IMG/VR virus record: IMGVR_UViG_3300031841_003649
Location: 1-34,557 of that record
From: a virus
DNA length: 34,557 nt
Strand: one strand, 5' to 3'
Shown: one piece after another, positions 2,403 to 22,027 of the stretch
Position numbering within the stretch: position 1 is the first letter of the stretch
Layout of the letters: each line of letters opens with the position of its first letter
Made by a program: the position numbers and the translations under genes
Notes under the pieces: model-generated
The model's database searches: none
Told to the model about the DNA's origin: nothing
The model's input: only the letters and a program-made list of their open reading frames with translations

Positions 2403-2499
2403 AAAATAATCCTTTAACTGTAGTTGACCCTGAAATCTACCGAGTATAAACTATAGTTATCTTAATCAACATTACTCAAACCAATAGCGAGACACGACG
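2403..2499 (+). promoter_or_regulatory. Early promoter-leader module, copy 1
   Basis: Contains AACTGTAGTT (2416-2425) overlapping a -35 TTGACC (2424-2429), then TATAAACT (2445-2452) as -10, and a perfect palindrome AACTATAGTT (2449-2458). The two 10-mers are centred 33 bp apart, about three helical turns. An unstructured leader (CTCAAACCAATAGCGAGACA) ends at the ATG of the next gene. Near-identical copies sit at 3671, 4730 and 20101. The preferred -10 is uncertain: TATAAA gives 15 bp spacing, TAAACT gives 17. Confidence 0.85.
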
Positions 2500-2694
2500 A
2501 TGAAGTTCGAAACCAAAAACGAAGTGAAAAAATATCTTGTATCTTACATGAACGAAGAGACCGCGAAGAAGTTCGGGAGACTCACTTCAGAAGAACAGGG
2601 TCACCACGCTAAAATCGCCTATGAATACTCACGTTTCATTGGTGATCTAGGATACATGGAAGCATACGCGGAGCAGTTAGAACTAAGTCTATAA
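2500..2694 (+). CDS. Small hypothetical protein, early unit 1
   Basis: 64 residues, mostly helical and charged, with no cysteine, signal peptide or membrane segment; I do not recognise the family. It is the first gene behind promoter module 1, starting exactly at the end of the conserved leader, which fixes the ATG. Base composition is more AT-rich than the virion genes. Being first in an early unit next to an ArdC unit, it is a candidate early host-interaction protein; that role is inference only. Confidence 0.7.
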   Translation: MKFETKNEVKKYLVSYMNEETAKKFGRLTSEEQGHHAKIAYEYSRFIGDLGYMEAYAEQLELSL

Positions 2695-2700
2695 TTTACA

Positions 2701-2735
2701 ATCAACACACCTCAAACCAATAGAGAGACACACTC
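2701..2735 (+). repeat. Conserved translation leader repeat
   Basis: CACCTCAAACCAATAGAGAGACACACTC directly precedes the ATG at 2736. It repeats the 3' half of the promoter modules without the promoter part, so the leader travels separately from the promoter. Related copies precede 5096 and 20550, and a shorter one precedes 5407. Confidence 0.75.
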
Positions 2736-3593
2736 ATGACACACACAGCCCAAAAAGTCGCTTTTGAAAATATTAAACTCTGGAAAGAACACACCGTCGG
2801 GAATTACGGATACGACGCTCTCGATCCTCGCGATCGCAAGTTGTACGAGTCGGACTTCGCTCCGATCGTGTTTCAATGTCGATTCAACGATCGCAAGTAT
2901 CACGCTTTTAAGCGAGAGAACGGACTCCTCTATTATCTTCAATGCTCAGTAAAAACTCAGGAGCGTTGTGACGAGTTCGAGCAGGACATGAAGTCTCGAG
3001 GAAACTGGAGCGATAGGATGTCCGAGTTCAATCATCCACAGACAGACCTCTGGTCACAGGCGGTCGATCAGGAAGACGGACGCGGCGTCTCCTTCTGGTC
3101 ACTGTGTACTCACGACCACGACGGGACGGGAGAGTATCGCGAGGGGCATGGATGGCTCGACTCGCTGTTCTACTATCTCAACGAGAAGCGCGAAGAGGTC
3201 GGCGATCGGGTCGACTTCATCCTCGAAGACATGGGGCGAGAAGAACTCCACAGACTGATCCGCCGACGTAAGCGAGAAGAGTGTCGCGGACACGACGGTC
3301 GCGGATTCTGTTCCGGATCCGCTCTCTGTCGACGAGTGAAGAATGACGATATAATCCCTGAACACTTCGACGGGATGCCGAGTCTGAAACTAATCCGACA
3401 GTTTAACAACTGGTCGAGTGAAGACGCGAAGGACGATCAGATCTGGATCGAGGGTCAGGTCTACGAGGAAGCATACTGGGCGGAGAATCCGATCGAGGGT
3501 CGACAGTGGGAGAACAGGGAACCGACGGGAGACTATTGGACAGTCACGATCTCAGTCACCTCAGAGATCGATCGGTCTCATCTGGACGGATAA
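2736..3593 (+). CDS. Hypothetical protein, early unit 1
   Basis: 285 residues, soluble, rich in Trp, Tyr, Asp and Arg, with no motif I recognise. It has a basic stretch at about 170-180 (RLIRRRKREE) followed by cysteines and histidines (CRGHDGRGFCSGSALCRR, about 183-200), which could bind a metal, but the spacing fits no standard finger. The ATG sits at the end of a copy of the conserved leader, and a strong terminator follows, so 2500-3593 is a closed two-gene unit. Function unknown; island context suggests an early takeover or counter-defence role (inference). Confidence 0.8.
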   Translation: MTHTAQKVAFENIKLWKEHTVGNYGYDALDPRDRKLYESDFAPIVFQCRFNDRKYHAFKRENGLLYYLQCSVKTQERCDEFEQDMKSRGNWSDRMSEFNHPQTDLWSQAVDQEDGRGVSFWSLCTHDHDGTGEYREGHGWLDSLFYYLNEKREEVGDRVDFILEDMGREELHRLIRRRKREECRGHDGRGFCSGSALCRRVKNDDIIPEHFDGMPSLKLIRQFNNWSSEDAKDDQIWIEGQVYEEAYWAENPIEGRQWENREPTGDYWTVTISVTSEIDRSHLDG

Positions 3594-3601
3594 GTGTGTC
3601 T

Positions 3602-3667
3602 CCTCCGCTCGTCGCGGAGGGGGTGATGTTGAGGATCCGAGGAGGATAAAACCTCCTCGGATTTTTT
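3602..3667 (+). terminator. Double hairpin with rho-independent terminator
   Basis: A first hairpin pairs CCTCCGC (3602-3608) with GCGGAGG (3614-3620). The second pairs ATCCGAGGAGG (3635-3645) with CCTCCTCGGAT (3652-3662) around a 6-base loop and runs into six T's. This closes early unit 1 just before promoter module 2. Confidence 0.92.
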
Positions 3668-3670
3668 CTT

Positions 3671-3767
3671 AAAATAATCTATTAACTGTAGTTGACGCCA
3701 AATTTTACCGAGTATAAACTATAGTTATCTTAATCAACATTACTTAAACCAATAGAGAGACACACTC
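3671..3767 (+). promoter_or_regulatory. Early promoter-leader module, copy 2 (ardC)
   Basis: Same layout as the copy at 2403: AACTGTAGTT 3684-3693, TTGACG 3692-3697, TATAAACT 3713-3720, AACTATAGTT 3717-3726, then the leader to the ATG at 3768. The spacer between -35 and -10 is the most divergent part while both 10-mers are intact, which argues that the 10-mers are protein-binding sites. Confidence 0.87.
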
Positions 3768-4685
3768 ATGACTAAAGCAAAAAAACAGCGACAGGACGTT
3801 CAGCAAATTGTAACCGACACAATAATCGAAGCATTATCCGCGAATGTTCTCCCGTGGAGAAAACCGTGGAAGGGATCGACTCCATCCTTCCAACTCGCGA
3901 AGAACGTGAAGTCGAAAAAACATTACAACGGGATAAACATCCTACTCCTCGGGATCGCACAACAAAACGCGGGATACGAGTCGAACCTGTGGGGGACTTA
4001 TAAGCAATGGCAAGAGCTAGGCGGTCAGGTGATGAAGGGAGAGAAGTCGACTCTCGTCGTCTTCTATAAGACATGGGAGAAGAAGGAGAAGGACGAGAAC
4101 GGAAACGAGACGATCCTGAAACTCCCAGTCCTTCGACAGTTCCGAGTCTTCAACATTGCACAGATCGAGGGATGTGAAGATCTTCGTCCTGAACCTGTAG
4201 AGGACGACAAACCTGTGAACATCTGGGAACGATATGAAGAGGCGGATCGATTGATCGAAGGATCCGGAGCGGAGATTAATCACGTCCGAGGGAATCGCGC
4301 TTTCTACTCCATCGGGACGGACACGATCACACTCCCCGAGTCGGATCAGTTCGAGAGCGCCGAGGGATATTACTCGACCGCGTTCCATGAGATCGCACAC
4401 TGGACGGGAGCGAGTCATCGACTCGATCGCAAGTTCGGACACAACTTCGGCGACGAGAAGTACGCCTTCGAAGAACTCATCGCCGAACTGACCGCCGCCT
4501 TCACACTGACTCACGTCGGACTCCCGAACCGATCGGAAGAGATGCCGAGTCATGTCAGTTATCTGTCATCATGGCTCAAGTCGCTGAAGAACGATAAGAC
4601 CTTCATCCATAAGGCCGCCGCCGCCGCATCGAAGGCGACAGAGATGATCATGAATCCGAAGGAGTCTCTCGTCGAATCGAAGTAA
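3768..4685 (+). CDS. ardC: ArdC-like antirestriction protein (ssDNA-binding domain plus zincin domain)
   Basis: N-terminal ArdC domain (about 8-135: LPWRKPWKG, YNGINILLL, WGTYKQWQELGGQVMKGEKS) binds single-stranded DNA in known members. The C-terminal metallopeptidase-like domain carries AFHEIAHWTG with HEIAH at 207-211 and a downstream glutamate in FEELIAE (234-240), the gluzincin zinc site. ArdC of plasmid pSa protects incoming single-stranded DNA from restriction, so here it probably shields the entering genome. About 305 residues is normal for the family. It is a single-gene unit with its own early promoter module and its own terminator, as expected of a gene needed at once on entry. Confidence 0.93.
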   Translation: MTKAKKQRQDVQQIVTDTIIEALSANVLPWRKPWKGSTPSFQLAKNVKSKKHYNGINILLLGIAQQNAGYESNLWGTYKQWQELGGQVMKGEKSTLVVFYKTWEKKEKDENGNETILKLPVLRQFRVFNIAQIEGCEDLRPEPVEDDKPVNIWERYEEADRLIEGSGAEINHVRGNRAFYSIGTDTITLPESDQFESAEGYYSTAFHEIAHWTGASHRLDRKFGHNFGDEKYAFEELIAELTAAFTLTHVGLPNRSEEMPSHVSYLSSWLKSLKNDKTFIHKAAAAASKATEMIMNPKESLVESK

Positions 4686-4695
4686 AGAACGACGG

Positions 4696-4726
4696 ATCCG
4701 AGGAGGAAAAAACTCCTCGGATTTTT
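4696..4726 (+). terminator. Rho-independent terminator after ardC
   Basis: ATCCGAGGAG (4696-4705) pairs with CTCCTCGGAT (4713-4722) around a 7-base A-rich loop, followed by a T tract. The stem is nearly the same sequence as the terminator at 3635, so promoter, gene and terminator repeat as a cassette. Confidence 0.92.
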
Positions 4727-4729
4727 CTC

Positions 4730-4826
4730 AAAATAATCTATTAACTGTAGTTGACTCTAAAATCTGTCGAGTATAAACTATAGTTATCTTAATCAACATT
4801 ACTTAAACCAATAGAGAGACACACAG
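4730..4826 (+). promoter_or_regulatory. Early promoter-leader module, copy 3
   Basis: AACTGTAGTT 4743-4752, TTGACT 4751-4756, TATAAACT 4772-4779, AACTATAGTT 4776-4785, then the leader ending at the ATG at 4827. It drives the third early unit (4827-6225). Confidence 0.87.
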
Positions 4827-5069
4827 ATGACAAACGTATTCGGAAGCATCAGCCACAACACTTACAAAACACAGGCTAACGCAATCAAGAAGCTGGAAAC
4901 AGTTCTTGAACCTCTCGGGGAAAAAGCAAGGTTCATCCGCTATATCGTAGCAGTCAATAATGAAGGTCGATTCTTTTGTGTCATCATTAATATCTTTGAT
5001 ACATGGCGACAAAACGATCTCCCCCAACCTGCATGGTTCGCCCATAACGGACTCTGTGTCACCAACTAA
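4827..5069 (+). CDS. Small hypothetical protein, early unit 3
   Basis: 80 residues, soluble, no recognised motif. The middle is likely beta strand (ARFIRYIVAVNNEGRFFCVIINIFDTW). The ATG is fixed by the leader module. It is the first gene of a three-gene unit that ends with the papain-like protein at 5407. Function unknown. Confidence 0.7.
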   Translation: MTNVFGSISHNTYKTQANAIKKLETVLEPLGEKARFIRYIVAVNNEGRFFCVIINIFDTWRQNDLPQPAWFAHNGLCVTN

Positions 5070-5095
5070 CACCTCAAACCAGACAGGAGAATATT
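5067..5095 (+). repeat. Conserved translation leader repeat, variant
   Basis: AACACCTCAAACCAGACAGGAG directly precedes the ATG at 5096. It keeps the CACCTCAAACCA core of the other leaders but has a stronger Shine-Dalgarno (AGGAG). Confidence 0.65.
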
Positions 5096-5410
5096 ATGAT
5101 TCATTACGAATGGTCAGTCGAACACGTCGACGAATATGGTGACATTCAGGACGTCGACTTCGTGGATAAATTATCGGAACTCTGGAGAGACTGGGACGAA
5201 CCGATATCAGGATGTCAGAGAGTCGATCTCTGTCTTCGTCGTCACGACTTCTCGGAGTCCGAGGGAGTACAGGACACAGAATATTATTATCCCGACGCCG
5301 ACGGAATCCTGACTCTCTTCGATCTGGAGTTCCGACCGGAATGGAAGGCGATCAAATCGAAACAGACTGAATACGATAAATTTATTAAATCAACGGAGAC
5401 ACACCGATGA
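5096..5410 (+). CDS. Hypothetical acidic protein, early unit 3
   Basis: 104 residues, strongly acidic over 1-90 (many Asp/Glu, DEYGDIQDVDFVDK near the start), with a Lys-rich C-terminus. Small acidic early phage proteins are often DNA mimics or inhibitors of host enzymes, but nothing in this sequence proves that. It overlaps the next gene by 4 bp (ATGA), so the two are probably translationally coupled. Unrecognised family. Confidence 0.72.
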   Translation: MIHYEWSVEHVDEYGDIQDVDFVDKLSELWRDWDEPISGCQRVDLCLRRHDFSESEGVQDTEYYYPDADGILTLFDLEFRPEWKAIKSKQTEYDKFIKSTETHR

Positions 5411-6225
5411 ACACAATTACGAAAATACTGTCGCTATGCGATCAGGATCCGACGATGGATCTGATGATCCTGAAGAAGATTATCCTCGAGCATAAGATGA
5501 AGAAGAAAGTCGAGTCCCTGAAGTATATCGAACACGAACATCTCGAAGGACAGTATGACGACTGTCGGTATCATGTCCGCCGGTGTCATCATTGGCTCAA
5601 GGAAATCGGAGAGGTTCAGCATCTTCTCTTCCGAAATCACGACGTCCAGTATGTCCTCGACCCCGAGACGAAGGAGTTCAAGGAAGTCGATCCGGATTCG
5701 CTGGACTTCGTCGTGGATGACGGCGGACGGAAGGCGGCGGGATATAAGGGGAACACGTCCGACTGCGTTCTCAGGTCTCTCTCGATCGCTCTCGGGGAGG
5801 ATTACGAAGACCTCCGTCGCGAACTGATGGAGGAGACGAAGAACTTCGCGAACACTTCACGGAGTCGCAAGGCGAAGAGACAGAAGAAGGAGGGGAATTC
5901 AGTTTTCAGAGGAGTCTATCGCGAGGTGTATTCCGTGATCCTGAAGAGACGCGGATGGATCAGGACGGGGATGAGTAAGATCGGATCGTCGAAGCGATAC
6001 TATCTCACGAAGTCAGACGTCCCTCCTGTTCCTGTGATCCTTCACACTCGCGGACATCTCACGACATCCATCGATCATACGATCCGCGACACTTGGGACA
6101 CTCGTATGTCTACAGTATTTAAGGACGGATCACCGACCGACGAGAAGTCTCCTCGGGTTTATTATTCGATGTGGACTCCTCCAGACTTCGACGTCGAGGA
6201 GTGGAAGAACTCTCTCGACTCATAA
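5407..6225 (+). CDS. Papain-like cysteine peptidase fold protein, putative (Cys-His-Asp)
   Basis: Residues 1-100 are helical and charged. Residues 105-235 show a pattern I recall from phage papain-like proteins: GNTSDCVLRSLSIALG with Cys120, then ILHTRGHLTTSIDHTIRDTW with His217 and Asp228. The order Cys-His-Asp suits a papain-fold peptidase, transglutaminase or amidase. No signal peptide or cell-wall-binding repeat is seen, so a cytoplasmic target is more likely than the cell wall, though an endolysin role is not excluded because no other hydrolase is found. It ends early unit 3 and converges on the minus-strand gene at 6220 with a 6 bp overlap. Catalytic activity is inferred, not shown. Confidence 0.72.
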   Translation: MNTITKILSLCDQDPTMDLMILKKIILEHKMKKKVESLKYIEHEHLEGQYDDCRYHVRRCHHWLKEIGEVQHLLFRNHDVQYVLDPETKEFKEVDPDSLDFVVDDGGRKAAGYKGNTSDCVLRSLSIALGEDYEDLRRELMEETKNFANTSRSRKAKRQKKEGNSVFRGVYREVYSVILKRRGWIRTGMSKIGSSKRYYLTKSDVPPVPVILHTRGHLTTSIDHTIRDTWDTRMSTVFKDGSPTDEKSPRVYYSMWTPPDFDVEEWKNSLDS

Positions 6226-6429
6226 TGTCGAGGACTGGATCAGATCGTGGATCTCATTGACTCGCCTCATGAGATCCGCGTGACTGATCTCATCTCCCGC
6301 GATCATGTCTCTCAGGTCTTCATACTGGGACGCGATGATCCGGATCTGTTGAGTTCTTCGCTGGAGAAGTTTCCGGATTCTCTCGAGTTCGCTGGAACTC
6401 ATAATCCTGTCAGATCGTTCGTCAGTCAT
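6220..6429 (-). CDS. Small coiled-coil-like hypothetical protein
   Basis: 69 residues, almost entirely helical with heptad-like leucines and isoleucines (ELERIRKLLQRRTQQIRII). The start shares one base with the stop of the phosphoesterase upstream on the minus strand (TGATG at 6431-6427), so the two form a coupled pair. A second in-frame ATG lies nine codons in. Function unknown; it may partner the phosphoesterase. Confidence 0.7.
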   Translation of the reverse strand: MTDERSDRIMSSSELERIRKLLQRRTQQIRIIASQYEDLRDMIAGDEISHADLMRRVNEIHDLIQSSTL

Positions 6430-7106
6430 CAGGAGATCCTCATCGGTTCGTATATCGCGTGAACTCCATCCAGAACGACGCCGCATCCGACGAGAGGTTT
6501 CTGATTGAACTTCTGTCCGTACTTCATCGCGAGGGAGTCGATGTCGATCCCAGTGGACACACTCATCCCGAAGATGATCGTCGACTCGTTCGCGAAGTAT
6601 GTGACCCCTCCCTGTCCGTGCAAGTGTCCCTGTACCCACGACGCGAAGTGATCCTTCGCGTTCTTCATCGCCGCATTGATTCCTCCCTTCCCTCGGTCGC
6701 CGTGGGCATATAAAACGCCGTCGATCGAGTAGGTCGAGAACCTCGGTCTCCACTCCCATCTCGGCGTCTCCCAGATGTCCGAATACTCTCGGATCAAATT
6801 GTTCGGGATCCCGATTGTCGTCGCTTTCCGCCGCGGGAGGGCGTCGTGGTTCCCAGTCATCACAACCGCGTCGGGAAAGGCGGAGTATAATTCCGCGACC
6901 TGTTCCTTCGCTTTCCTGAACTCCTCGATCGGCGAGGGAGATTCCGGATCCTTCTCATGATATGAGATCGCGCCAAAGTCGACGACGTCCCCGATGTGAA
7001 CGACGCGATCGCAATTCCATGAACCATAAATCTCTCGCAAGAAGTCGACGTATCCTTCCCGCATAGCTGGCGCGTGAGTGTCGCCAATAACCAAAACTCT
7101 CGACAT
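6429..7106 (-). CDS. Calcineurin-like metallophosphoesterase
   Basis: All the metal-binding motifs of the family are present, in order: GDTHAP (8-13), GDVVDF (39-44), GNHD (85-88), HGDRG (135-139) and GHLHG (160-164). It probably hydrolyses a phosphomonoester or diester; the substrate cannot be read from sequence. I place the start at 7106 because GGAGGTG (7113-7119 on the opposite strand) sits six bases before that ATG and the protein then opens with MSRVLVIGDTH. An in-frame ATG 36 bases further upstream lacks this support. It and its downstream partner are the only clear minus-strand genes, a sign of a separately acquired cassette. Confidence 0.92.
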   Translation of the reverse strand: MSRVLVIGDTHAPAMREGYVDFLREIYGSWNCDRVVHIGDVVDFGAISYHEKDPESPSPIEEFRKAKEQVAELYSAFPDAVVMTGNHDALPRRKATTIGIPNNLIREYSDIWETPRWEWRPRFSTYSIDGVLYAHGDRGKGGINAAMKNAKDHFASWVQGHLHGQGGVTYFANESTIIFGMSVSTGIDIDSLAMKYGQKFNQKPLVGCGVVLDGVHAIYEPMRIS

Positions 7107-7161
7107 GAAGTTCACCTCCGAATTCATTGTCGCCTCGATCACAGGATCCGTCGAACAATTA

Positions 7162-7201
7162 ATCGACAGAGTCGATATTACTTTGTAGAATGTTCGCGAA
7201 C
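7162..7201 (+). promoter_or_regulatory. Candidate promoter of the virion operon with flanking palindromes
   Basis: TCGACA (7163-7168) and TAGAAT (7186-7191) are 17 bp apart, a good sigma70-type arrangement pointing at the head genes. ATCGAC-aga-GTCGAT (7162-7176) is an inverted repeat over the -35, and GTTCGCGAAC (7192-7201) is a perfect palindrome just after the -10. The region separates the divergent phosphoesterase and head genes. It does not resemble the early modules. Confidence 0.6.
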
Positions 7202-7230
7202 TCTGACGCGATCTAATTAATAATATAAAG

Positions 7231-7470
7231 ATGACTCAGAACATAACAAACAAAGACGCGAAGTCCTCGACGCCTTCCTTCGCTTCGAAAATGGTGTCGG
7301 CATTGGAGAAGGCTCTCATCTCGAACGCGATGATCGTCTCGGTTCAGATCGACGGGATCTCCACTCGATTCGATCGTCGTCAAGCGCTCGACGAGTTGAA
7401 ATACTGGAAGAGACTGAAGGCGTCCGAAGATGGAACTCGACCGCGACTCTCACGGATCAAAATGTCGTAA
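7231..7470 (+). CDS. gpW-like head-tail joining protein
   Basis: 79 residues. The segment SVQIDGISTRFDRRQALDELKYWKRL resembles the beta-hairpin and helix of lambda gpW and relatives (x-V-x-x-DG-x-x-x-x-F-x-R). It sits directly before the portal gene, exactly where W lies in lambda (A-W-B), and shares one base with it (TAATG). gpW-type proteins plug the connector after packaging so that the tail can attach. Identification rests on this short pattern plus position. Confidence 0.65.
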   Translation: MTQNITNKDAKSSTPSFASKMVSALEKALISNAMIVSVQIDGISTRFDRRQALDELKYWKRLKASEDGTRPRLSRIKMS

Positions 7471-8849
7471 TGAAGACAATTAAAAAAAACAGAATCCCCT
7501 CGCCGGTAAAATTCAATTATGAATCCGGCGACAGTTCGAAGAAGAGAAGGAATCCATCGACGCGACTGAAGTCAGTCGACTCGATGCTGACTCGGGATAA
7601 ACGGAATCGCCTACAGGCGAACACTCGCGACCTGACTCAGAACTTCGCTCTCGCTGGGTGGGCTGTTCGTCGTCATCTCGATTATATATCACAGTTCGAC
7701 TTTCAAGCGAACACAGGAGACGTCGGTCTCGATCGTGATATCGAAGCGATGATGGAGTGGTATCAAAGACCTCAGAACTGTGATGTCTCACGTCGTCACA
7801 GTTTTGCGTCGATCGTTCGGATGTGCGAGGAGCGTCGGACGATCGACGGCGATGTCTTCCTCGTGAAATTGAGTTCCGGACATTTGCAGGTCATCGAATC
7901 CGATCGCGTTCGCGATCCCGATCAGATCTCTCCCGAGGATCAGGGGAAGATCGTTCACGGTGTGAAGGTCGCTCCCTCGGGGATGCTGAGATCGATCGCA
8001 GTTCATCGAAGAGATGATCGCCGCGGATATGAGTTCGAGAGATCAGTCCGCGGGGCGAACGTCTTTCACTTCGGATACTTCGATCGCTTCGATCAGATCC
8101 GAGGAGTGAGTCCCCTCGCTCCGGCGGTTGCGACCTTCCGAGACATCGCGGAGTCATCCGAGTATGCTCTCCAGAAAATGAAAGTCCAGAGTCTCTTCGC
8201 GTTAGTGTTTTATCGTGACTCATCCGATAACTTCGGCGACTATGAATCGTCGGGAGGATACGAGGTCGACTTCGGAAAGAACGGCGGCGCCGTGAAGTTA
8301 GATCTCGAACCGAATGATCGAGCCGAATTCCTCGAGAGTAAATCTCCGGCGAATGAATTCCAGTCCTTCCTCGACCACTCGATCGGGATGGCGCTGAAGT
8401 GTCTCGACATTCCGATCTCCTTCGCTGACGAGAGTCGCGTGAATTACTCCTCCGCTCGATCCGCGTGGATCCATTACGAACGGTCGACTCGATCGAAGCG
8501 AAGATCGCTCCGCGATCTATTGGATCGGATCACCTACTGGAGAATGAAGCTATTCATTCAGGATGGAGACCTGACACTCTCTCGCGGGATGGATCTCTCG
8601 GCGGTTCGCTGGGAGTGGGTTCACTCGGGTACGCCGTGGGTCGATCCGAAGAAGGAAGTCGAAGGAGACATCCTCGCGATTGCCGCCGGTCTGAAGACTC
8701 GGAGTCAGGTCGTGAAGGAGAGACACGGGAAAGAATTCAGGGACGTCGCGGAACAACTCGCGAACGAACAGAGACTCCTCGAGGAACTGGGAGTCGATAC
8801 AGCATTGAACAAAGTCCTCGACCTATCAGGAGAAGACAATGACGAATAA
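7470..8849 (+). CDS. Portal protein (lambda gpB family)
   Basis: Forms the dodecameric ring through which DNA enters and leaves the head. Residues 30-80 (RDKRNRLQANTRDLTQNFALAGWAVRRHLDYI) match the N-terminal pattern of lambda-type portals. The central part (RGANVFHFGYFDRFDQIRGVSPLAPAVATFRDIAE, about 190-230) is the most diagnostic piece of the family. 459 residues is a typical length. Placed between the gpW-like gene and the protease, with an 11 bp overlap into the latter. Confidence 0.92.
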   Translation: MKTIKKNRIPSPVKFNYESGDSSKKRRNPSTRLKSVDSMLTRDKRNRLQANTRDLTQNFALAGWAVRRHLDYISQFDFQANTGDVGLDRDIEAMMEWYQRPQNCDVSRRHSFASIVRMCEERRTIDGDVFLVKLSSGHLQVIESDRVRDPDQISPEDQGKIVHGVKVAPSGMLRSIAVHRRDDRRGYEFERSVRGANVFHFGYFDRFDQIRGVSPLAPAVATFRDIAESSEYALQKMKVQSLFALVFYRDSSDNFGDYESSGGYEVDFGKNGGAVKLDLEPNDRAEFLESKSPANEFQSFLDHSIGMALKCLDIPISFADESRVNYSSARSAWIHYERSTRSKRRSLRDLLDRITYWRMKLFIQDGDLTLSRGMDLSAVRWEWVHSGTPWVDPKKEVEGDILAIAAGLKTRSQVVKERHGKEFRDVAEQLANEQRLLEELGVDTALNKVLDLSGEDNDE

Positions 8850-9948
8850 GGAGAAGATCCCAGTCGAAGCGCTCGAGATGGTGTCTCGCGGCGAGGCTGT
8901 TAATTTTAATCACACAGAAGGAGCGAAGGATGACGGACTGAATGTCACACTCCTCGCTCGAAGTTCTAAGGCGATAGATCACTGGTATTGGGGGTCGGTC
9001 GTTCATGATCTGGAAGGGATGAAAGTGAAGGAGCGGATCCCGCTCGACTTCAATCACAACCCCGACGAGATCATCGGATATCTGGACGAGTTCGAGATCA
9101 CTGAAGAGGGACTTCTCTGTCATGGGAAGTTAACTCCCTTCAGTGAGAACGACCGCGCCTCGGAGATCGCGTTCAAATCAAAAGCAGGCGTCCCGTGGGA
9201 GAGTTCGATCTCCTTCGGCGGCGATGGGATTGTCCTCGAGAATATCGGCGACGATCCTGTGACTGTGAACGGATTAGAGTTCTCGAACGGGACAGTCGTT
9301 CGGGAGTGGCCGTTCCGCGCTTGCGCAATTTGTCCCAGTGGAGCAGACGCGAACACGTCCTCCGCTGTTTTTAATAGTGGTGATCTCGTCGAGGTCACGG
9401 TCTTATCAAAGGAGAAGAAGATGGACGACAACAAGGAAAGCGACTTCACAGAAGTCGCTGAAGATGTTATCGTCGCAGACCTCGATGAAGTTCAAGAGGA
9501 TGAAATCCTCGAAGAAGCAGTCGATCAGGTAGGCGACGAACAGGTCGAAGAATCTCAGGAAGAAGCAGTCGTCGAAGATGCTGAAGAAGCAGTCGTCGAA
9601 GAGGCGGTCGAACTGAGTGATCCTCGCGCCGAGTGTCGACAATTTGTCGAACAATTCGGAGCGGAGAACGGCGGTCAATGGTTCGCTGAAGGATTGAGTC
9701 TCGCAGAGGCGACCTCACTTCATAATCAGGGAATCGAAGATGAACGCGACGAACTTCTGAAGGAAGTCGCTGAACTTCGTCAACGTCTAAGCAGTATAGA
9801 ACGCGGAGAGGATGCTCCTCTTCAGTTCTCAAACAGCGACGACGATGAAGAGGCAGAACGTCGAAACAGGTTCGAACGTAAACGAAGGGAAGTCGGATCC
9901 GGCGCGATCGCCGCGTTCGAGAATCGCTTCGAAACAAAACAAAACTAA
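8839..9948 (+). CDS. Head maturation protease fused to scaffold
   Basis: Residues 1-185 are a prohead serine protease: PLDFNHNPDEIIGYLD with His73, PWESSISFGG with candidate Ser122 or Ser123, and the closing VREWPFRACAICPSGADANT. Residues 195-260 are extremely acidic, and 295-325 form a coiled coil (DERDELLKEVAELRQRLSSIE), as in scaffolding proteins. The protease would cleave scaffold and capsid proteins during head maturation. The 369-residue fusion mirrors lambda C/Nu3. Catalytic residues are assigned by pattern only. Confidence 0.87.
   Translation: MTNKEKIPVEALEMVSRGEAVNFNHTEGAKDDGLNVTLLARSSKAIDHWYWGSVVHDLEGMKVKERIPLDFNHNPDEIIGYLDEFEITEEGLLCHGKLTPFSENDRASEIAFKSKAGVPWESSISFGGDGIVLENIGDDPVTVNGLEFSNGTVVREWPFRACAICPSGADANTSSAVFNSGDLVEVTVLSKEKKMDDNKESDFTEVAEDVIVADLDEVQEDEILEEAVDQVGDEQVEESQEEAVVEDAEEAVVEEAVELSDPRAECRQFVEQFGAENGGQWFAEGLSLAEATSLHNQGIEDERDELLKEVAELRQRLSSIERGEDAPLQFSNSDDDEEAERRNRFERKRREVGSGAIAAFENRFETKQN
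9421..9948 (+). CDS. Scaffold protein from internal start
   Basis: GGAG at 9411-9414 lies six bases before an in-frame ATG that is codon 195 of the protease gene. Initiation there gives a 175-residue protein with only the acidic and coiled-coil scaffold part, the same nested arrangement as lambda Nu3 inside C. The site sits exactly at the domain boundary, which favours real use. Confidence 0.65.
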   Translation: MDDNKESDFTEVAEDVIVADLDEVQEDEILEEAVDQVGDEQVEESQEEAVVEDAEEAVVEEAVELSDPRAECRQFVEQFGAENGGQWFAEGLSLAEATSLHNQGIEDERDELLKEVAELRQRLSSIERGEDAPLQFSNSDDDEEAERRNRFERKRREVGSGAIAAFENRFETKQN

Positions 9949-9972
9949 AACCATTTTAAGAAAGAGACAAAA

Positions 9973-10890: not shown

Positions 10891-10898
10891 GGAAGGCA

Positions 10899-11270: not shown

Positions 11271-11272
11271 GA

Positions 11273-11692: not shown

Positions 11693-11694
11693 TA

Positions 11695-13388: not shown

Positions 13389-13391
13389 AAC

Positions 13392-15563
13392 ATGGTATCA
13401 ACCGGAGCAATTAAAGCGGGACGAGCGTTCGTCGAGCTAGGTATCAACGATAAGATGACCGCGGCTCTCAGGAAGGCATCCGCAAAATTAAAAGCGTTCG
13501 GGAATTCAGTGTCGGCGATCGGGTCGAAGCTCGCCGGATTCGGCGCCGCCGTCGGCGCTCCACTCGTTGCCGCGGGGAAGGTCTTCGCCGACTTCGAGAG
13601 ATCGATGTCAATGGTGTCGACGATGCTGGATGAACCGGAGAAACATATGGAGGGATTTTCTGAGGGGATTCGGAAACTATCGAAGGACTTCGGAGAATCG
13701 ACCGACGTTCTCGCAAAGGGTCTCTATGATATCCTGTCCGCGGGGATCGCTCCCTCGGAGGCTCTCAAAGTTCTCGAGGCTTCAGCGAAGGCGGCGACGG
13801 GAGGGATGACAGACACCGCGACCGCGGTCGATGCGGTCACGACGATGTTAAACTCCTACGGACTCGAGGCGTCTCACGCTGGCGACGTCTCCGACCTTCT
13901 CTTCGCGATTGTGAAGAGAGGGAAGACGACCTTCGGGGAAGTCGCCGGATCGATCGGACAGGTCGCATCGGTGGCGAGATCCACAGGGGTCTCGATGGAG
14001 GAACTCGGGGCGATGTTAGCGACGATGACACGGAACGGTCTATCGACCTCTGAGTCTGTGACCGCGATCCGCTCCGCTCTCTCCGCGTTCCTCAAGCCGA
14101 CTAAAGAGGCGGCGGACGCCTTCCGAGAATTGACAGGGATGGAGATGAATCCCGCCGCGATCAAATCTCTCGGAGGGATGCGAGGCGTCATGGAATTAAT
14201 TCGGGACATGCCACCGGACGCCGTCGCGAAAATCTTCCCGAATGTCCGCGCATTATCTGGGATGCTCCCCGCGTTGAATGACCTCCAGAACTTCGACGCG
14301 GATCTCGCGACAATGGCAGGACGAACAGGACTCGCCGAAGACGCATTCAACAAAATGAAAGACACAATGACGCAGGCGTTCAAATCAATGAAACAGGCGG
14401 GACTAGATCTCCTCGTCACAGTAGGATCCGCGCTTGTCCCAGTCTTCCAAGATCTGACGGAGACATTCCATCGCGTGACGGCGATCGTCGCTCCGTGGTT
14501 GGAACAGAACAAGGAACTCGTCGCAATAATCGCGAAGGTCGCGATCGGAGCGATCGCCGGAGGTCTGGCTCTCATGGTTCTCGGGAAAGCGTTCGCCTTA
14601 GTAGGAACCGCCGTCGGTGTCGCGGCGACGATCCTCGGAGTCCTGAAGGCGGTTCTCCTCGCGATCCTGTCACCGATCGGACTGACGATCGCCGCGATCG
14701 CTGGGATCGGTTACGCTCTCTATAAGTTTACAGACATTGGGAAGGAAGTCGTCGGGAAGGCGATGGATATATTCGGAGGGATCGCCGACGTCGCGGGGAT
14801 CGCGTTCGACGGTGTGAAGGATGCTCTCGCGGCGGGAGACTGGGGACTCGCGGCGAAGATCGGATGGTCTGGGATTAAGGCGGCGTGGACTTCTGGGGTC
14901 AACGTACTCCGCGAGGCGTGGATCGGATTCAAGTCCGTCTTCATGAACTCGATGACTGACATCGCGACCGGAACGAAGAAGGCGTGGACATCCGTTCAGA
15001 CATGGTTTAAGAAAGGATGGAACAATCTAAAGGCGCTATTCGGATCCGCTGATTCTGAAGCAATGGCGGCGGCGAACAGGAAACTCGAGACCGAAGCAGA
15101 ACGACGAAGGAAACAAATCGAAGCAGAAGGGGAGGCGACGAAGTCCGCGAGGAATGAAAAGTACGCCGCGGAGATGCGAGCGATCGGAGAAGAGGAACGC
15201 GCCGCGAAGCAGGAACTCGAGAGACTCAGGAATGAAGCGAAGAGGAAACGAGAGGAACGAGAGGCGAAGCTGAAGGGGATTAAAGACGGACTAGACTCCG
15301 AGGGAGGATTCGATCCTGACGCCTTTATGAGTGATCTCTCGGCGGACATGGCTGGGATCAAACCGCTCGCGAAACGTGGCGAGATGTCATCAACTGGATT
15401 CACCAGTTCGTTCGCCGCTCTCAGGATGGCGGGTAATGCTCCGAGTGATATCGACAAACAGACAGAAGAGAACACGAAGAAGACCGCCGAGATTGTAAAG
15501 AAAATGAAACAGGTTTTAGAGGACGGGATCGACGTGAATATCAGCGATCTCACGTTCGCATAA
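13392..15563 (+). CDS. Tail tape measure protein
   Basis: 723 residues. Residues about 60-320 form the TP901-type tape measure core (FERSMSMVSTML, LAKGLYDILSAGIAPSEALKVLEASAKAATGGM, FGEVAGSIGQVASVARSTGVSMEELGAMLATMTRNGL). Hydrophobic segments at about 375-440 (GAIAGGLALMVLGKAFALVG, AVLLAILSPIGLTIAAIAGIGYAL) could enter the host membrane on ejection. A charged coiled coil spans about 560-640. By the lambda rule of about 0.15 nm per residue the tail would be near 100 nm. Largest gene after the fibre, as usual. Confidence 0.95.
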   Translation: MVSTGAIKAGRAFVELGINDKMTAALRKASAKLKAFGNSVSAIGSKLAGFGAAVGAPLVAAGKVFADFERSMSMVSTMLDEPEKHMEGFSEGIRKLSKDFGESTDVLAKGLYDILSAGIAPSEALKVLEASAKAATGGMTDTATAVDAVTTMLNSYGLEASHAGDVSDLLFAIVKRGKTTFGEVAGSIGQVASVARSTGVSMEELGAMLATMTRNGLSTSESVTAIRSALSAFLKPTKEAADAFRELTGMEMNPAAIKSLGGMRGVMELIRDMPPDAVAKIFPNVRALSGMLPALNDLQNFDADLATMAGRTGLAEDAFNKMKDTMTQAFKSMKQAGLDLLVTVGSALVPVFQDLTETFHRVTAIVAPWLEQNKELVAIIAKVAIGAIAGGLALMVLGKAFALVGTAVGVAATILGVLKAVLLAILSPIGLTIAAIAGIGYALYKFTDIGKEVVGKAMDIFGGIADVAGIAFDGVKDALAAGDWGLAAKIGWSGIKAAWTSGVNVLREAWIGFKSVFMNSMTDIATGTKKAWTSVQTWFKKGWNNLKALFGSADSEAMAAANRKLETEAERRRKQIEAEGEATKSARNEKYAAEMRAIGEEERAAKQELERLRNEAKRKREEREAKLKGIKDGLDSEGGFDPDAFMSDLSADMAGIKPLAKRGEMSSTGFTSSFAALRMAGNAPSDIDKQTEENTKKTAEIVKKMKQVLEDGIDVNISDLTFA

Positions 15564-15575
15564 CAGGAGAGACAG

Positions 15576-16523
15576 ATGGCGATAAAGATGTGGGAGAAGT
15601 ATCTCTCCCGAGAGGGATCCGCCTCCGCTGAAGAGGCGACGAGCGATCGGATCTTCATCATTCAGGGAACCGAGAGCGATGAGGATGTTCATCGTCATGT
15701 CATGAATAACGTCCCCTCCGGACACCTCGGTCTCGACGTCGAGTCCTATGATATCTCTCCTCTTCACGATGACGTCTGGGAGATTACGGTTCACTATAAA
15801 GGAGGAGCCGAAGAGAAGAAGGACTCGCGGGAGAAGCAGAAGGGGGAACAGGAGAGAGATCGAGACGGAGAGATCCAGTTCAACACAAGCGGAGCGACGA
15901 CTCGACTATATAATTCTCTCGAGACGATAGGATACTGGTCTCCAGATCCTCCGGCGCCTCTGTTCGATAATGCGATCCAAGTCGACAAGGAAGGGAAACC
16001 ACAGGGGACGGACGTCGTGATCCCGACTCTCGAGTGGAGCGAGACTCACACCTTCCCCTCCTCGATGGTTGATTATAGTTTTATGAAAACACTCGCGAAC
16101 GTCACAGGGCGAGTAAATAAAAGCATCTTCAGATCATTCGCCGCGGGCGAGGTTCTCTTCACAGGAGCGTCCGCGAATTGGAACGACGAGTCGATCGCGG
16201 TGACTTATTCATTCATCGCATCGCCGAACATCAATCCCCTGAAGATCGGGGACAACAATACGGGCATGGAGAAGAAGGGTCACGACTTCGTCTGGATCTA
16301 TTACGAAGACGACGTCGACGAGACGGCTCACTGTAAAACCAAAAAGATCAGGGCTGTTTATATCGAACGAATATACGACGAGATCGACTTCGACATCCTC
16401 GGGATCCCGAGCGCTTACGATAAGAGGATGCAGATGATCAGCGACCGGAACGAGCGACTCGAAGAGAGACGCCGACAGAGAGAGCGAGGTCAACTCGGCG
16501 ACCTGTTTGGAGATCGTGAATAA
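15576..16523 (+). CDS. Virion structural protein following the tape measure (baseplate/tail tip?)
   Basis: 315 residues. After a charged linker (about 85-105) comes DGEIQFNTSGATTRLYNSLETIGYW...VVIPTLEWSETHTFPSSMV...LTG-type strands, with FAAGEVLFTGASA and FIASPNINPLKIGDN...KKGHDFVWIYYEDD. I recall this pattern from phage proteins encoded just after the tape measure, but no function is firmly attached. The position suggests a distal tail or tail-tip component. The C-terminus is very basic and coiled-coil-like (RNERLEERRRQRERGQ). Confidence 0.75.
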   Translation: MAIKMWEKYLSREGSASAEEATSDRIFIIQGTESDEDVHRHVMNNVPSGHLGLDVESYDISPLHDDVWEITVHYKGGAEEKKDSREKQKGEQERDRDGEIQFNTSGATTRLYNSLETIGYWSPDPPAPLFDNAIQVDKEGKPQGTDVVIPTLEWSETHTFPSSMVDYSFMKTLANVTGRVNKSIFRSFAAGEVLFTGASANWNDESIAVTYSFIASPNINPLKIGDNNTGMEKKGHDFVWIYYEDDVDETAHCKTKKIRAVYIERIYDEIDFDILGIPSAYDKRMQMISDRNERLEERRRQRERGQLGDLFGDRE

Positions 16524-17332
16524 TGCCATCGAATGAATATGTAAACTCGGGAGACCCGTTCAGAGTCAGGGCGGGGACATGGAACGACATCATTAAATCG
16601 AAGGACTCCTATCTGAAGAGTCGCGGAGGGGGAGCAGACTTCGACGTCTCCGACTGGTCTGACTTCGTTACAGTAAAGAACGAATCCGGCGCGGATATTC
16701 CTGATCTGACCGCCGTCCGAATTACAGACGTAAAGATCGACCCAAGTGATCATTTACAATCAGCGAGATCAACTCCAGTTTTCAAGGGAGAGTCTCTCAG
16801 TGTAACAACGGAATACAATTCTGGAAACAATATCGGGATAGCACAACAACCTATAAAGAACGGATCTGTCGGGATGGTTCAGTTTTCAGGAATGACGCTC
16901 GCGAAGATTCACGTCTTCAATGAGAACGATGACCTCGTCACTCCGAAGTCTCACCAAGGTGTTATGAAATTAACTTCCTGCTCATACGGAGAGACAGGAT
17001 CGCGGATTGTCTGGAAGGAGTCAGGGACAGGCGACGATAAACTCGCTTATATTAATCTCGGACAGTTCAGGAGTCGATACTGTTCGCTGATACGAGGGAG
17101 GCTCGCGGGTTCTTTATCTACCACAAGCGGGACAGTGACGGGAGACAGTCTTCACGGAATCGACGGCCTGATCAGGAAGGACGACGACGACGCCGGACAG
17201 ATAACTCTCGTAAATAATTTTAGTTGGGATGGAGATGACAACGCTTATTTCGTCGCGGCGTGGGAAGTGAGTACGTCTGCTGTTACGAATTCGCTGTGGA
17301 CTATCATTCAGTTAGATTGTCCAGTGAACTAG
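16523..17332 (+). CDS. Virion structural protein, hypothetical
   Basis: 269 residues, beta-rich, no cysteine cluster, no signal. It includes VKNESGADIPDLTAVRITDVKI and IGIAQQPIKNGSVGMVQFSGMTLAKIHV, strand-turn patterns common in phage appendage proteins. It overlaps the previous gene by one base (TAATG) and is followed within 10 bp by the Cys-rich gene, so it belongs to the tail-tip operon. Exact role unknown. Confidence 0.75.
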   Translation: MPSNEYVNSGDPFRVRAGTWNDIIKSKDSYLKSRGGGADFDVSDWSDFVTVKNESGADIPDLTAVRITDVKIDPSDHLQSARSTPVFKGESLSVTTEYNSGNNIGIAQQPIKNGSVGMVQFSGMTLAKIHVFNENDDLVTPKSHQGVMKLTSCSYGETGSRIVWKESGTGDDKLAYINLGQFRSRYCSLIRGRLAGSLSTTSGTVTGDSLHGIDGLIRKDDDDAGQITLVNNFSWDGDDNAYFVAAWEVSTSAVTNSLWTIIQLDCPVN

Positions 17333-17342
17333 GGGGAGAGAG

Positions 17343-18008
17343 ATGGGTGGTCGTCGCTGTTGCTGTTCCGAAACGGAGTGTTGTTTTTGTAATCAGTGCG
17401 TTACTTGTATCGATGAGTGGGATGTGACGATCAGCGGATTCGGTGACACCGAAACGTCTGAGGGCTATGGATGCTGGGACTGTGATCGATTCGATGGTAC
17501 TTACACATTAAGCCGTCCGAGTCAGTACGATCTAAGCAGCGCCGATAATTGCGAGAACCTTTCAGAAGGCACTCGGTCTAATTGTCAATGGACATACAAC
17601 TCAAATTTTAATCCTTCGACTGACTCTCATTCTCTGGCGGCTGATTGTCTTCTCTCTTCTTTAGCTTATGGAGACACTCCATATATCGCATGGATTAAAC
17701 AAATAAGGCTTCAAGTTTTCACGACGTCATTTTATGCTAATAACCAATACAACACGGGGAAGAACTTCCGTCTCGGTATAACCGCGGCGAGGGCATACGA
17801 TAACGGGACAGGAATCACAGATTACACAGAGTTATATTGGCGCTGGTTCCCTACGAAGTCAGACGGTACATATTACGGATCCGATGACCTGATGCCATGT
17901 AGCAGTTACGGGTTCAATACAACTCCTGACTGGGAGAGTACTGAGTGGATTCCAACTTATCCATGCGACCCCGACGATGTCACGTTCACGATCGAGGTCG
18001 CGGACTGA
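17343..18008 (+). CDS. Cysteine-rich N-terminus virion protein
   Basis: 221 residues. The first 25 residues hold nine cysteines (GGRRCCCSETECCFCNQCVT), with more pairs later (GCWDCDRF, DNCENL, SNCQW, DCLLSS, PCSS, PCDPDD). The body looks like a beta sandwich (DEWDVTISGFGD...DRFDGTYTLSRP). Similar C-rich proteins occur at this place in some marine and planctomycete-like phages (recalled, not checked). Cysteines may bind metal or form disulfides in the virion. It overlaps the next start by one base. Confidence 0.75.
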   Translation: MGGRRCCCSETECCFCNQCVTCIDEWDVTISGFGDTETSEGYGCWDCDRFDGTYTLSRPSQYDLSSADNCENLSEGTRSNCQWTYNSNFNPSTDSHSLAADCLLSSLAYGDTPYIAWIKQIRLQVFTTSFYANNQYNTGKNFRLGITAARAYDNGTGITDYTELYWRWFPTKSDGTYYGSDDLMPCSSYGFNTTPDWESTEWIPTYPCDPDDVTFTIEVAD

Positions 18009-18256
18009 TGGAGATATGTGAGTGGAAGAGTCTCGACGATGGGTCGTTCCAGTGTGTGAGATGTGAGAAGATAAAAACGAAGGCGACGCGGAGAAACTGT
18101 CCAATCCCTCGAGGTCTTGGAGATGTCGTCGCGTCGTTCATCAAAAAAACTTTAAGGATTAAACCTTGCTCTCCCTGTGAGAAGAGACGGAGAGCATTAA
18201 ACAAAATCAGATTAAATCGACGTGATGAATTAAGTCCCGAAGATTCGGAAGATTAA
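18008..18256 (+). CDS. Small zinc-binding protein
   Basis: 82 residues. CEWKS..FQCVRCEKIKT...NCPIPRGLGDVVASFIKKTLRIKPCSPCEKRRRALNKI: several Cys pairs around a GLGD-x-V-x-x-x-x-K helix. This short pattern recurs in phage tail operons I have seen, usually as a hypothetical protein. The ATG at 18008 shares a base with the upstream stop (TGATG); an upstream in-frame ATG at 17945 would sit deep inside the previous gene and is not used here. Confidence 0.78.
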   Translation: MEICEWKSLDDGSFQCVRCEKIKTKATRRNCPIPRGLGDVVASFIKKTLRIKPCSPCEKRRRALNKIRLNRRDELSPEDSED

Positions 18257-18296
18257 ATCGACGACGTCGATGATAATGAAATTAGGAGAAAATTAA

Positions 18297-19094
18297 ATGG
18301 CTCGTAAAACTTGGAACGGATCAGACGGAGACTTCTCGGCCTCTTCGAACTGGCTGCCGACGGGGACGCCGATCGGGGGAGACGACATCGTCTTCGATGG
18401 AACTAGCAGTCAGAGCGTGACTTCGAATCTCGATCAGTCGCTGATCGAATTCGCTTCTCTTGTCGTCGATGATGATTACACAGGTAACATCGGATCCGGA
18501 CTTAATTATCTACAGGTAGGAATAACGACCGGAGGACTCGTCTCTCTCGCGAGTTCAGGGACGGTTTTGATCGACCTCGGATCGAGCGATGTCGACGTTC
18601 AGGTTCTGGACGGGTCGGTCTATGTGAAGGGATCCGCGATCGCTGATCTTATCGCGATGGGCGGCGAGGTCTATGTCGCCGGAAAGACAGGCGACTCGGC
18701 GAGCGTCACGAAAATTAAAACGATGGGAGCGACTGTCGAAGTCTCCGATCAGGTGACGAACAGTCCCGCCGCTGAAGTTTACTCGGGAAGTCTGACAACG
18801 AAGAAGACTCTCGGGTCTCTTCAGACATACGGAGGGAAGGTCGAGACCACTCTCGACGCGGTGATCTCCGGCGCGATGACAATCGAGGGAGGTTCCTTCA
18901 TCCCTAATGGCTCCGGATCCTATGGAGCTATGACTGTTTATAGTGGCACAATCGACGGAAGAAAATCAGGAAGCGATCGAACCTTCTCATCCGTAAAAAT
19001 AAACGGAGGCGCGTTCGCTCTGAATCCGTCCGTCACTGTCACGTCACTCCAGACTCCAGACGATCAGGTCGTGATCACTGTCAGGAAGGGTTAA
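18297..19094 (+). CDS. Beta-helix-like surface protein, possible receptor-binding
   Basis: 265 residues, almost entirely short strands with Gly, Ser, Thr and Val. It opens with KTWNGSDGDFSASSNWLPTGTPIGGDDIVFDG, a motif also found at the start of repetitive autotransporter-like passenger domains (W-x-G...NW...P-x-x-GD). The rest has irregular parallel-beta repeats. In a tail operon this fits a fibre or head decoration. No enzyme motif is visible. AGGAG precedes the ATG. Confidence 0.7.
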   Translation: MARKTWNGSDGDFSASSNWLPTGTPIGGDDIVFDGTSSQSVTSNLDQSLIEFASLVVDDDYTGNIGSGLNYLQVGITTGGLVSLASSGTVLIDLGSSDVDVQVLDGSVYVKGSAIADLIAMGGEVYVAGKTGDSASVTKIKTMGATVEVSDQVTNSPAAEVYSGSLTTKKTLGSLQTYGGKVETTLDAVISGAMTIEGGSFIPNGSGSYGAMTVYSGTIDGRKSGSDRTFSSVKINGGAFALNPSVTVTSLQTPDDQVVITVRKG

Positions 19095-19097
19095 TCG

Positions 19098-19427
19098 ATG
19101 GGACGAAGGAGAGACCGAAGAAGATCAGCGATCTCGGATCCGTCCGTCGATCCTCCTGTGGCAAATAAGGACACTAGGATGTCAGTGAAGTCAGAGAAAA
19201 GAGAAGACAAGTCAGAAGCGAAGTCGGACAAGTATGACTTCAAAGTGTCGAAGATAGAATCGAAGACACAGAAGAGTCTCGCGACCGCCGAGAAGAGGAA
19301 CGCACTCGCGAACCTGATCAAGTGGGTAGTGATCGCGATCGGCGTGATTTATGGAATGACTAAACTCGGAGGACTGGATCTCGGCGGAGACCTCTTCGAG
19401 AAAGTGAAGGGATTCATCGGAGGATAA
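19098..19427 (+). CDS. Charged protein with one C-terminal membrane segment
   Basis: 109 residues. The N-terminal 75 are highly charged (Lys/Glu/Ser, coiled-coil-like); a single hydrophobic segment (ANLIKWVVIAIGVIYGMTKLGG, about 75-96) follows, then a short amphipathic tail. First of four small genes between the surface protein and the replication operon, the usual place for lysis genes. Possibly a holin-associated or spanin-like factor; not recognised. Confidence 0.65.
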   Translation: MGRRRDRRRSAISDPSVDPPVANKDTRMSVKSEKREDKSEAKSDKYDFKVSKIESKTQKSLATAEKRNALANLIKWVVIAIGVIYGMTKLGGLDLGGDLFEKVKGFIGG

Positions 19428-19428
19428 G

Positions 19429-19659
19429 ATGGTCGATCAGATTAAAGAAAACCTGAAGAGTAAATTAAAGGATTGGTGGAGCGTCTCTGATTCGAAGCGA
19501 CTCGCCGCCGTGGTGATCACCGCGGGGCTGACGACCGTCCTGACTCATAATGATCTCATGACAGACGACGCCGCGTATCGGATCACGGGTCTGATCATCG
19601 CGGCGGTTCTCGGCGATTCCTATCGACCGATGAATCCGAACAAGGGGATCGATAAATGA
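19429..19659 (+). CDS. Small protein with two hydrophobic segments, holin-like
   Basis: 76 residues with hydrophobic stretches at about 25-38 (LAAVVITAGLTTVL) and 52-62 (ITGLIIAAVLG), separated by a short polar loop, and a charged N-terminus. Size and layout resemble small class II holins, although both segments are short for full membrane spans. GGAGG precedes the ATG by four bases, one base after the upstream gene ends. Confidence 0.55.
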   Translation: MVDQIKENLKSKLKDWWSVSDSKRLAAVVITAGLTTVLTHNDLMTDDAAYRITGLIIAAVLGDSYRPMNPNKGIDK

Positions 19660-19862
19660 TGAAGTGGAGATATATTAAAGTCGGGAGCCGATCGCGAATG
19701 ATGCTCCGCTCGAACTCCGCTCACGATCTCATCGACGTCGAGACTCAACTCCTCGTTATGGGGTTCATCCGCGTGAAGTTCTTCTCGTACTGGCTCCACG
19801 TAATCAACGAAAACCACACACCGAAGAAAGACTTCTATGGAAACGCTCAAGCTAATATCTGA
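19656..19862 (+). CDS. Small hypothetical protein in lysis cluster
   Basis: 68 residues. It contains IDVETQLLVMGFIRVKFFSYWLHVINE, amphipathic rather than clearly transmembrane. It overlaps the previous gene by 4 bp (ATGA) and the next by 26 bp, so expression is coupled. An ATG one codon later (19659) is also possible. No family recognised. Confidence 0.6.
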   Translation: MMKWRYIKVGSRSRMMLRSNSAHDLIDVETQLLVMGFIRVKFFSYWLHVINENHTPKKDFYGNAQANI

Positions 19863-20085
19863 ACTCGGATTTCCTGTCGTGATCTGTGGGATCCTCCTGT
19901 GGTCATTCAAGAAACTCGGAGCGGTTCTTCTGGAGAAGGTCGTGGATCCGTTAGTGAATAGTCACAGAGTCTTCCTCGTAAAGATGGAGGAGCAACTCGA
20001 GATTCAGAGCGAACTCCTCCACCATCTCGTCGAACTCCAGAAGGATATCCTCGACAGGATCGCGTCTAAACCTTCCGGAAAATAA
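19837..20085 (+). CDS. BhlA/holin-like membrane protein, putative
   Basis: 82 residues: one N-terminal membrane segment (LGFPVVICGILLWSF, about 10-24), then an amphipathic coiled-coil tail (VFLVKMEEQLEIQSELLHHLVELQKDILDRI). This matches the layout of BhlA/UviB-type holin-like proteins. It is the last gene before the early promoter module at 20101. It is the best holin candidate in the genome, though no endolysin partner is recognised. Confidence 0.62.
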   Translation: METLKLISELGFPVVICGILLWSFKKLGAVLLEKVVDPLVNSHRVFLVKMEEQLEIQSELLHHLVELQKDILDRIASKPSGK

Positions 20086-20100
20086 TTTCAAAAGATTCTT

Positions 20101-20197
20101 AAAATAATCCTTTAACTGTAGTTGACTCTGAAATCTGCCGAGTATAAACTATAGTTATCTTAATCAACACACCTTCAAACCAAACGGAGACACACCG
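20101..20197 (+). promoter_or_regulatory. Early promoter-leader module, copy 4 (replication operon)
   Basis: AACTGTAGTT 20114-20123, TTGACT 20122-20127, TATAAACT 20143-20150, AACTATAGTT 20147-20156, then the leader up to the ATG at 20198. Nearly identical over about 60 bases to the copies at 2403, 3671 and 4730, more than 15 kb away. It reads into the replication genes. Confidence 0.88.
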
Positions 20198-20503: not shown

Positions 20504-20516
20504 AAACCTTTACAAT

Positions 20517-21938: not shown

Positions 21939-21946
21939 AGAACGAT

Positions 21947-22023: not shown

Positions 22024-22027
22024 CACG

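Follow-up and report, generated by a model that had tools for sequence, protein, structure and literature searches.

A promoter-leader module repeated at two island sites of a virus genome, with a candidate operator sequence that is private to each phage

Near-identical stretches of about 97 bp stand before unrelated genes at four places in the virus genome analysed here, three in one gene island (A) and one in a second island (B). What such a stretch does at two sites about 15 kb apart, and whether one regulator reads all copies, are the questions addressed here. Taken from IMG/VR, the window, meaning the whole stretch of DNA analysed, is a virus record that spans 34,557 bases and includes genes for terminase, portal, major head and tape-measure proteins and for replication.

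Four copies of a promoter-leader module

The four copies and their parts, in which sites A and B are 10-mers, were located as follows.

2403-2499, + strand: module A1, before ORF 2500; site A 2416-2425, -35 TTGACC 2424-2429, -10 TAAACT 2447-2452, site B 2449-2458, leader up to 2499
3671-3767, + strand: module A2, before the ArdC gene (ORF 3768); site A 3684-3693, -35 3692-3697, -10 3715-3720, site B 3717-3726
4730-4826, + strand: module A3, before ORF 4827; site A 4743-4752, -35 4751-4756, -10 4774-4779, site B 4776-4785
20101-20197, + strand: module B1, before ORF 20198 and the unit ending in the XRE gene; site A 20114-20123, -35 20122-20127, -10 20145-20150, site B 20147-20156

Site A (AACTGTAGTT) was exact at 2416, 3684, 4743 and 20114 and site B (AACTATAGTT) at 2449, 3717, 4776 and 20147, with a constant A-to-B distance of 33 bp, which confirmed the four near-identical modules with paired 10-mers described in the initial annotation. 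A scatter of the 10-mers elsewhere in the genome, which that annotation had set against its own proposal of a regulon, was not found for exact copies; in the whole 34,557-base window, no further exact AACTGTAGTT or AACTATAGTT lay outside the four modules. When up to one mismatch was allowed, 14 and 9 near-matches, respectively, were counted across the window, compared to 0.62 and 0.21 in whole-window shuffles.

The likeness among the copies started about 13 bp upstream of the first 10-mer (column identity 0.41 upstream of -13 and 0.90 in the AT-rich stretch) and stopped at the start codon. Past the ATG, the coding sequence was unrelated (identity 0.33-0.42), and different genes stand behind the same promoter, which supports the proposed cassette-like behaviour. 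Invariant columns made up 13/13 of 10-mer A plus GAC, 15/15 of the -10 plus 10-mer B and 13/15 of the leader start, compared to 7/14 of the spacer (identity 0.70). The difference in invariance between sites and spacer was significant (Fisher P = 1.3e-4), the invariance of site B being inseparable from that of the surrounding -10 and leader. A perfect 10-nt palindrome with a second copy at no more than one mismatch occurred in 0.05-0.18% of dinucleotide-shuffled modules. A 10-nt palindrome alone was found in 8-16% of shuffled modules, and the palindromes of the 10-mers alone are therefore weaker evidence than they appear.

The -10 is best read as TAAACT, which lies 17 bp from the -35 hexamer TTGACN in all four modules, and not as first proposed; TATAAA lies just 15 bp from the -35. 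Reuse of terminator stems, also proposed earlier, held for modules A2 and A3 and failed for the other two.

3635-3667, + strand: terminator (ATCCGAGGAGG stem, T run), directly upstream of module A2
4696-4727, + strand: terminator with the same ATCCGAGGAGG stem, directly upstream of module A3

Genes behind the modules

The units that follow the modules contain the genes listed below; homologues are those in the related phage G001.

2500-2694, + strand: island A unit 1, small ORF without a family match
2736-3593, + strand: island A unit 1, 285-aa ORF; homologue in G001 island B (46%)
3768-4685, + strand: island A unit 2, ArdC-type anti-restriction protein
4827-6225, + strand: island A unit 3, ORFs 4827, 5096 and 5407; homologue of 5407 in G001 island B (47%)
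20198-21606, + strand: island B unit, ORFs 20198, 20550, primase-like 20752, 21303 and a small hydrophobic ORF

The product of ORF 3768 carried ArdcN and MPTase-PolyVal domains, both far above the gathering score. No homologues of ORF 2736 were found in cultured phages. Judging by the layout and by the ArdC anti-restriction gene, the island genes are probably early. Module B1 fronts two small ORFs, a short primase-like ORF and two more small ORFs, followed by the XRE gene. No + strand terminator was predicted between module B1 and the end of the XRE gene or the replication operon, and XRE could therefore be produced from the module that it is proposed to repress. The main replication operon, which had been placed under the same control, has its own, different promoter, P5 (at about 21905), and would be reached from module B1 through read-through only; this part of the proposal was at most partly supported.

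A leader separable from the promoter

The leader shared by the modules runs to the ATG, as had been noted. It was not bound to the promoter, however, since promoterless copies were present before three ORFs of the window.

2695-2735, + strand: promoterless leader before ORF 2736
5384-5406, + strand: promoterless leader, short form, before ORF 5407
20509-20549, + strand: promoterless leader before ORF 20550

Promoterless copies were also present in G001 and in a second relative, G013, and the leader is a second element, separable from the promoter-operator. GACAC was found within 30 nt of the start of 7/8 island genes and of one other gene, the csrA-like gene at 22028. The median folding energy was -1.6 kcal/mol for island leaders and -10.2 kcal/mol for those of other genes (P 1e-5). 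Island leaders are A/C-rich and AT-rich (GC 0.37 vs 0.45), and their shuffled versions folded just as weakly, so the weak folding can be attributed, at least in part, to composition. The leader probably aids translation. Between phages, the B1 leader resembled those of G001 and of a further relative, G030, beyond shuffles (p 0.009 or less); similarity between G013 and window leaders was weak (p 0.03-0.3), and the leader of ORF 3768 showed no resemblance to the G001 leader.

Island layout is kept in related phages and module sequence is not

Most genes are common to the window, G001 (34,784 bases, loci L042 and L043) and G013 (35,201 bases, L055 and L056), with amino-acid identities to the window of about 25-73%, for most of them 45-73%. 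In both relatives, modules occupy the two island sites, as in the window. Island site A is flanked by the small gene that follows the terminase and by the phosphoesterase gene, and island site B separates the tail-end genes from the XRE/replication block. The two-island layout is thus conserved in three related phages. Over 66 bp, mean module identity was 0.84 when the islands of one phage were compared and 0.40 when different phages were compared, irrespective of island; module flanks and coding sequence were unrelated. In G001 both islands point leftward, and the homologues of the island A ORFs 2736 and 5407 sit in its island B. The layout was thus kept, genes were moved and the module sequence changed in concert across distant sites. 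The dispersed regulon of one specificity that had been proposed was supported by these modules, alike within and unlike between phages.

The promoter-operator sequence is private to each phage. The window operator was absent from eight other records, including G001, and module DNA matched cultured phages only at E 0.9. A search of other viral contigs for the same paired operator returned two matches, both rejected as lying in unrelated AT-rich contexts. These private operators fit control of the whole set by a phage-private repressor.

Concerted change could result from copying between islands, or from selection exerted by a regulator common to them. In G001, all four modules share TATG-N8-CATA in the -35/-10 spacer; its TATG and CATA arms were kept in 4/4 while the centre changed, and the upstream 10-mer was not kept in module M1. 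Site arms were thus retained in sequence that has otherwise diverged, which favours selection by a common regulator, at least in part. Were copying the whole explanation, the modules would be strong constitutive host-type promoters, spread within the genome by recent duplication or gene conversion, with palindromes that no dedicated regulator reads. Gene conversion would give modules far more alike within than between phages; two G001 copies are moreover identical over 75 bp, and two window modules also share their terminator stem. This account is nevertheless somewhat unlikely, given that likeness stops sharply at both module ends, that diverged copies (the window spacer; G001 M1 vs M2) keep the site arms and not the centre, and that the G001 operator also occurs outside any module, at the XRE start codon.

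It is very improbable that the modules serve in recombination or replication, as exchange points or iteron-like elements, and not as gene switches. They do lie next to the most variable genes, and sequence is common to two distant sites, but a -35/-10 pair (17-18 bp), a terminator upstream of several copies and a leader ending at the start codon, in three phages, point to gene expression.

Several other features were noted in these genomes. G001 (L042) contains a 47-bp exact repeat (reverse-complement coordinates 17635 and 18272) at the starts of two different genes, where it covers the leader and the opening codons (MLTQKKINEA); it suggests recombination at gene starts. In the window, 69-bp repeats lie at 32788-33642 inside a large ORF (31471-33846), and the G001 homologue has a comparable repeat array. 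G013 carries a tyrosine-recombinase-like gene (L055, 8920-10100) adjoining a tRNA-like 3' fragment, on which basis it is probably temperate. A host search with this fragment gave no exact match, no integrase match was obtained in the window or G001, and no prophage relatives were found in bacterial genomes via the capsid protein.

The XRE protein as candidate regulator

Two features near the end of the island B unit bear on the identity of the regulator.

21669-21902, + strand: XRE (HTH_3) protein, likely module regulator; start uncertain, longest ORF from 21600
21901-21940, + strand: promoter P5; -35 TTGACA 21909-21914, degenerate AACTNNAGTT sites 21901-21910 and 21924-21933

The XRE protein matched PF01381 at 5e-13 and resembled 434 repressor chains at 2e-4 to 6e-4. 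Its orthologue stands directly before a csrA-like gene in all three phages, and the presumed recognition-helix region differs among the three, as do their operators. P5 lies between the XRE and csrA-like genes. Its first degenerate site covers the -35 in the same register as in the modules, and the centres of its two sites are 23 bp apart, shorter than in the modules by about one helical turn. Of the 13 AACTNNAGTT near-sites outside the modules, three fell within 150 bp of the XRE gene, a distance of our own choosing (Poisson P 0.0016), and two of these are in P5, where the initial annotation had listed none. In G001, TATG-N8-CATA was found five times genome-wide, four times in the modules and the fifth time over the XRE start codon, compared to 0.18 expected from a first-order model. 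A search for a motif shared by both XRE flanks in the window and G001 returned nothing above shuffles.

XRE, already named as regulator in the initial annotation, is thus likely to be so on two independent, indirect lines, the G001 operator and the clustering in the window; G013 provided none. There, a different repeat, TTGTCAACTTTTGTMAAC, lies on either side of the XRE gene and is absent from the G013 modules, so XRE may have another target in that phage. This repeat, unlike the module, is one reason to consider that a factor other than XRE 21669 reads the modules, whether a second XRE (in G001 and G013), some other DNA-binding protein of the phage or a host factor; another is the presence of a second HTH_3 protein in both G001 and G013. 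Such a factor is unlikely, as the window has a single HTH_3 match and the G001 operator sits on the orthologue of the window XRE, and operators private to each phage argue against a host factor in particular.

Proposed mechanism

Control by XRE as a phage-encoded repressor is the reading that we prefer. Taken as a whole, it is rather probable that the module combines a host sigma-70-type promoter and two phage-repressor sites with a start-associated leader that favours translation, and that its copies place the small genes of the two islands, including the ArdC gene, under one switch. After DNA entry, the unoccupied promoters would fire at once. XRE, whose gene closes the module B1 unit, would then build up, and its dimers would take site A, covering the -35, and site B, covering the -10 and start, both on the same helix face. 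All module promoters would be shut in this way, and the related P5 more weakly; production of XRE from its own repressed module would amount to negative feedback. The A/C-rich, unstructured 5' UTR, ending in GAGACAC(AC), probably helps ribosome loading. The anatomy of the modules, the conserved layout of two islands, the operators private to each phage and the separate, repeated leader are seen directly in the sequences; early timing, XRE binding, repression and the effect of the leader on translation we infer from them.

Comparison with known systems

The closest known counterparts are the start-associated sequences (SAS) and extended SAS (ESAS) of cluster K mycobacteriophages. SAS are 13-bp sequences repeated just before the start codons of non-structural genes, and about half of them have an upstream inverted-repeat element of about 47 bp, the ESAS; the inverted repeat is subcluster-specific and the SAS shared across subclusters (PMC3203893). 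Putative SigA-like promoters with 17-18 bp spacing are contained in ESAS (PMC11373665). Similarly, the window has a short GACAC-type leader at the starts of a subset of non-structural genes and a sigma-70-like promoter upstream of some of these leaders, absent before 2736, 5407 and 20550. However, the 13-bp SAS consensus GGGATAGGAGCCC had 0 matches in the window at up to two mismatches. Repeat geometry also differed: ESAS have 17-bp imperfect inverted repeats with a variable spacer, the window has two 10-bp palindromic sites, at the -35 and the -10 and a fixed 33 bp apart, in place of 17-bp arms, and the G001 operator is a 16-bp inverted repeat. The modules therefore appear to work like SAS/ESAS without being members. 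Two conserved island sites, a candidate operator also at the XRE gene and different phages further set them apart.

With lambdoid regulation of the 434 type, the modules share an HTH_3 protein and inverted-repeat sites inside a sigma-70-type promoter. The half-site geometry of 434 repressor is 4-6-4, which TATGT-N6-ACATA of G001 fits, whereas the 10-bp window sites are 4-2-4. Also unlike the lambdoid arrangement, there are four dispersed near-identical promoters instead of one divergent pair, and the window has no integrase match. At the regulator's own gene, G001 has an operator copy (at the XRE start), the window degenerate sites nearby and G013 a different repeat. The conserved inverted repeats of phiC31 and the c1 operators of P1 are dispersed-operator phage regulons. 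The L5 stoperators are likewise named as dispersed phage sites (PMC3203893). One repressor specificity with many sites across the genome is common to these regulons and the modules; in the latter, by contrast, promoter, sites and leader form a unit copied whole in front of genes.

Occurrence in other phages

Of 136 non-redundant loci retrieved with terminase, helicase and other queries, 21 carried at least two alike TTGA[CT]-anchored cassettes before unrelated ORFs, compared to 2-7 with control anchors. In our judgement, the cassettes appear to be genuine promoters in about 14 of these loci; the others resemble coding repeats, as do many of the control matches. A second group (L152, L154, L156, L158, L159, L161, L178, L184 and L197) carried promoter-leader cassettes with a common leader hairpin, CGCGGCGGACACCGCG (GGA in the loop), and a common AACGGAG start region; the promoter-operator differed between phages, one private example being CCTATTGAC...CGATAGG.

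We tentatively suggest, as a possible generalization, that at least two phage groups share a two-part design, in which a leader common across phages is joined to a promoter-operator rewritten in concert in each phage, a private repressor rules the accessory genes and incoming genes are adopted behind a local copy. The copies number four at two distant sites in the window group and 2-3 per record in the second group. What is new here is the conservation of two island sites, together with an operator copy at the G001 XRE gene and the phage-private rewriting of all copies. In other phages, a repeated private promoter may mark a probably early, anti-host gene set with many genes of unknown function, and the three XRE proteins with their three operator sequences offer a natural series for the co-change of a repressor and its dispersed operators.

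CsrA-like genes

A post-transcriptional device was also considered, in which a phage CsrA-like protein (22028, 30001) would bind the common leaders and control translation. CsrA requires GGA, and the ACAAGGA found in G001 leaders is close to its consensus. Each of four related phages (the window, G001, G013 and G030) has two csrA-like genes, and the leader of one such gene contains a hairpin with an AAGGA loop, both in keeping with this device. In the window, however, GGA lay within 20 nt of the start in only 3/8 island leaders, one of them of another type, and no CsrA match was obtained in the tested records of the L152-L197 group, which also has repeated promoter-leader cassettes. The device is quite improbable, and CsrA as the main regulator of the window leaders was rejected, GGA being missing from most of them.

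The two CsrA-like genes of the window (PF02599; 22028-22285 and 30001-30198) bracket the replication operon. In the first, about 25-30 residues are inserted after the first strand of the protein, and its leader (21965-22027) contains a strong hairpin with the AAGGA loop (z -2.5) and then a GGAGGA ribosome site, which resembles the arrangement in CsrA autoregulation.
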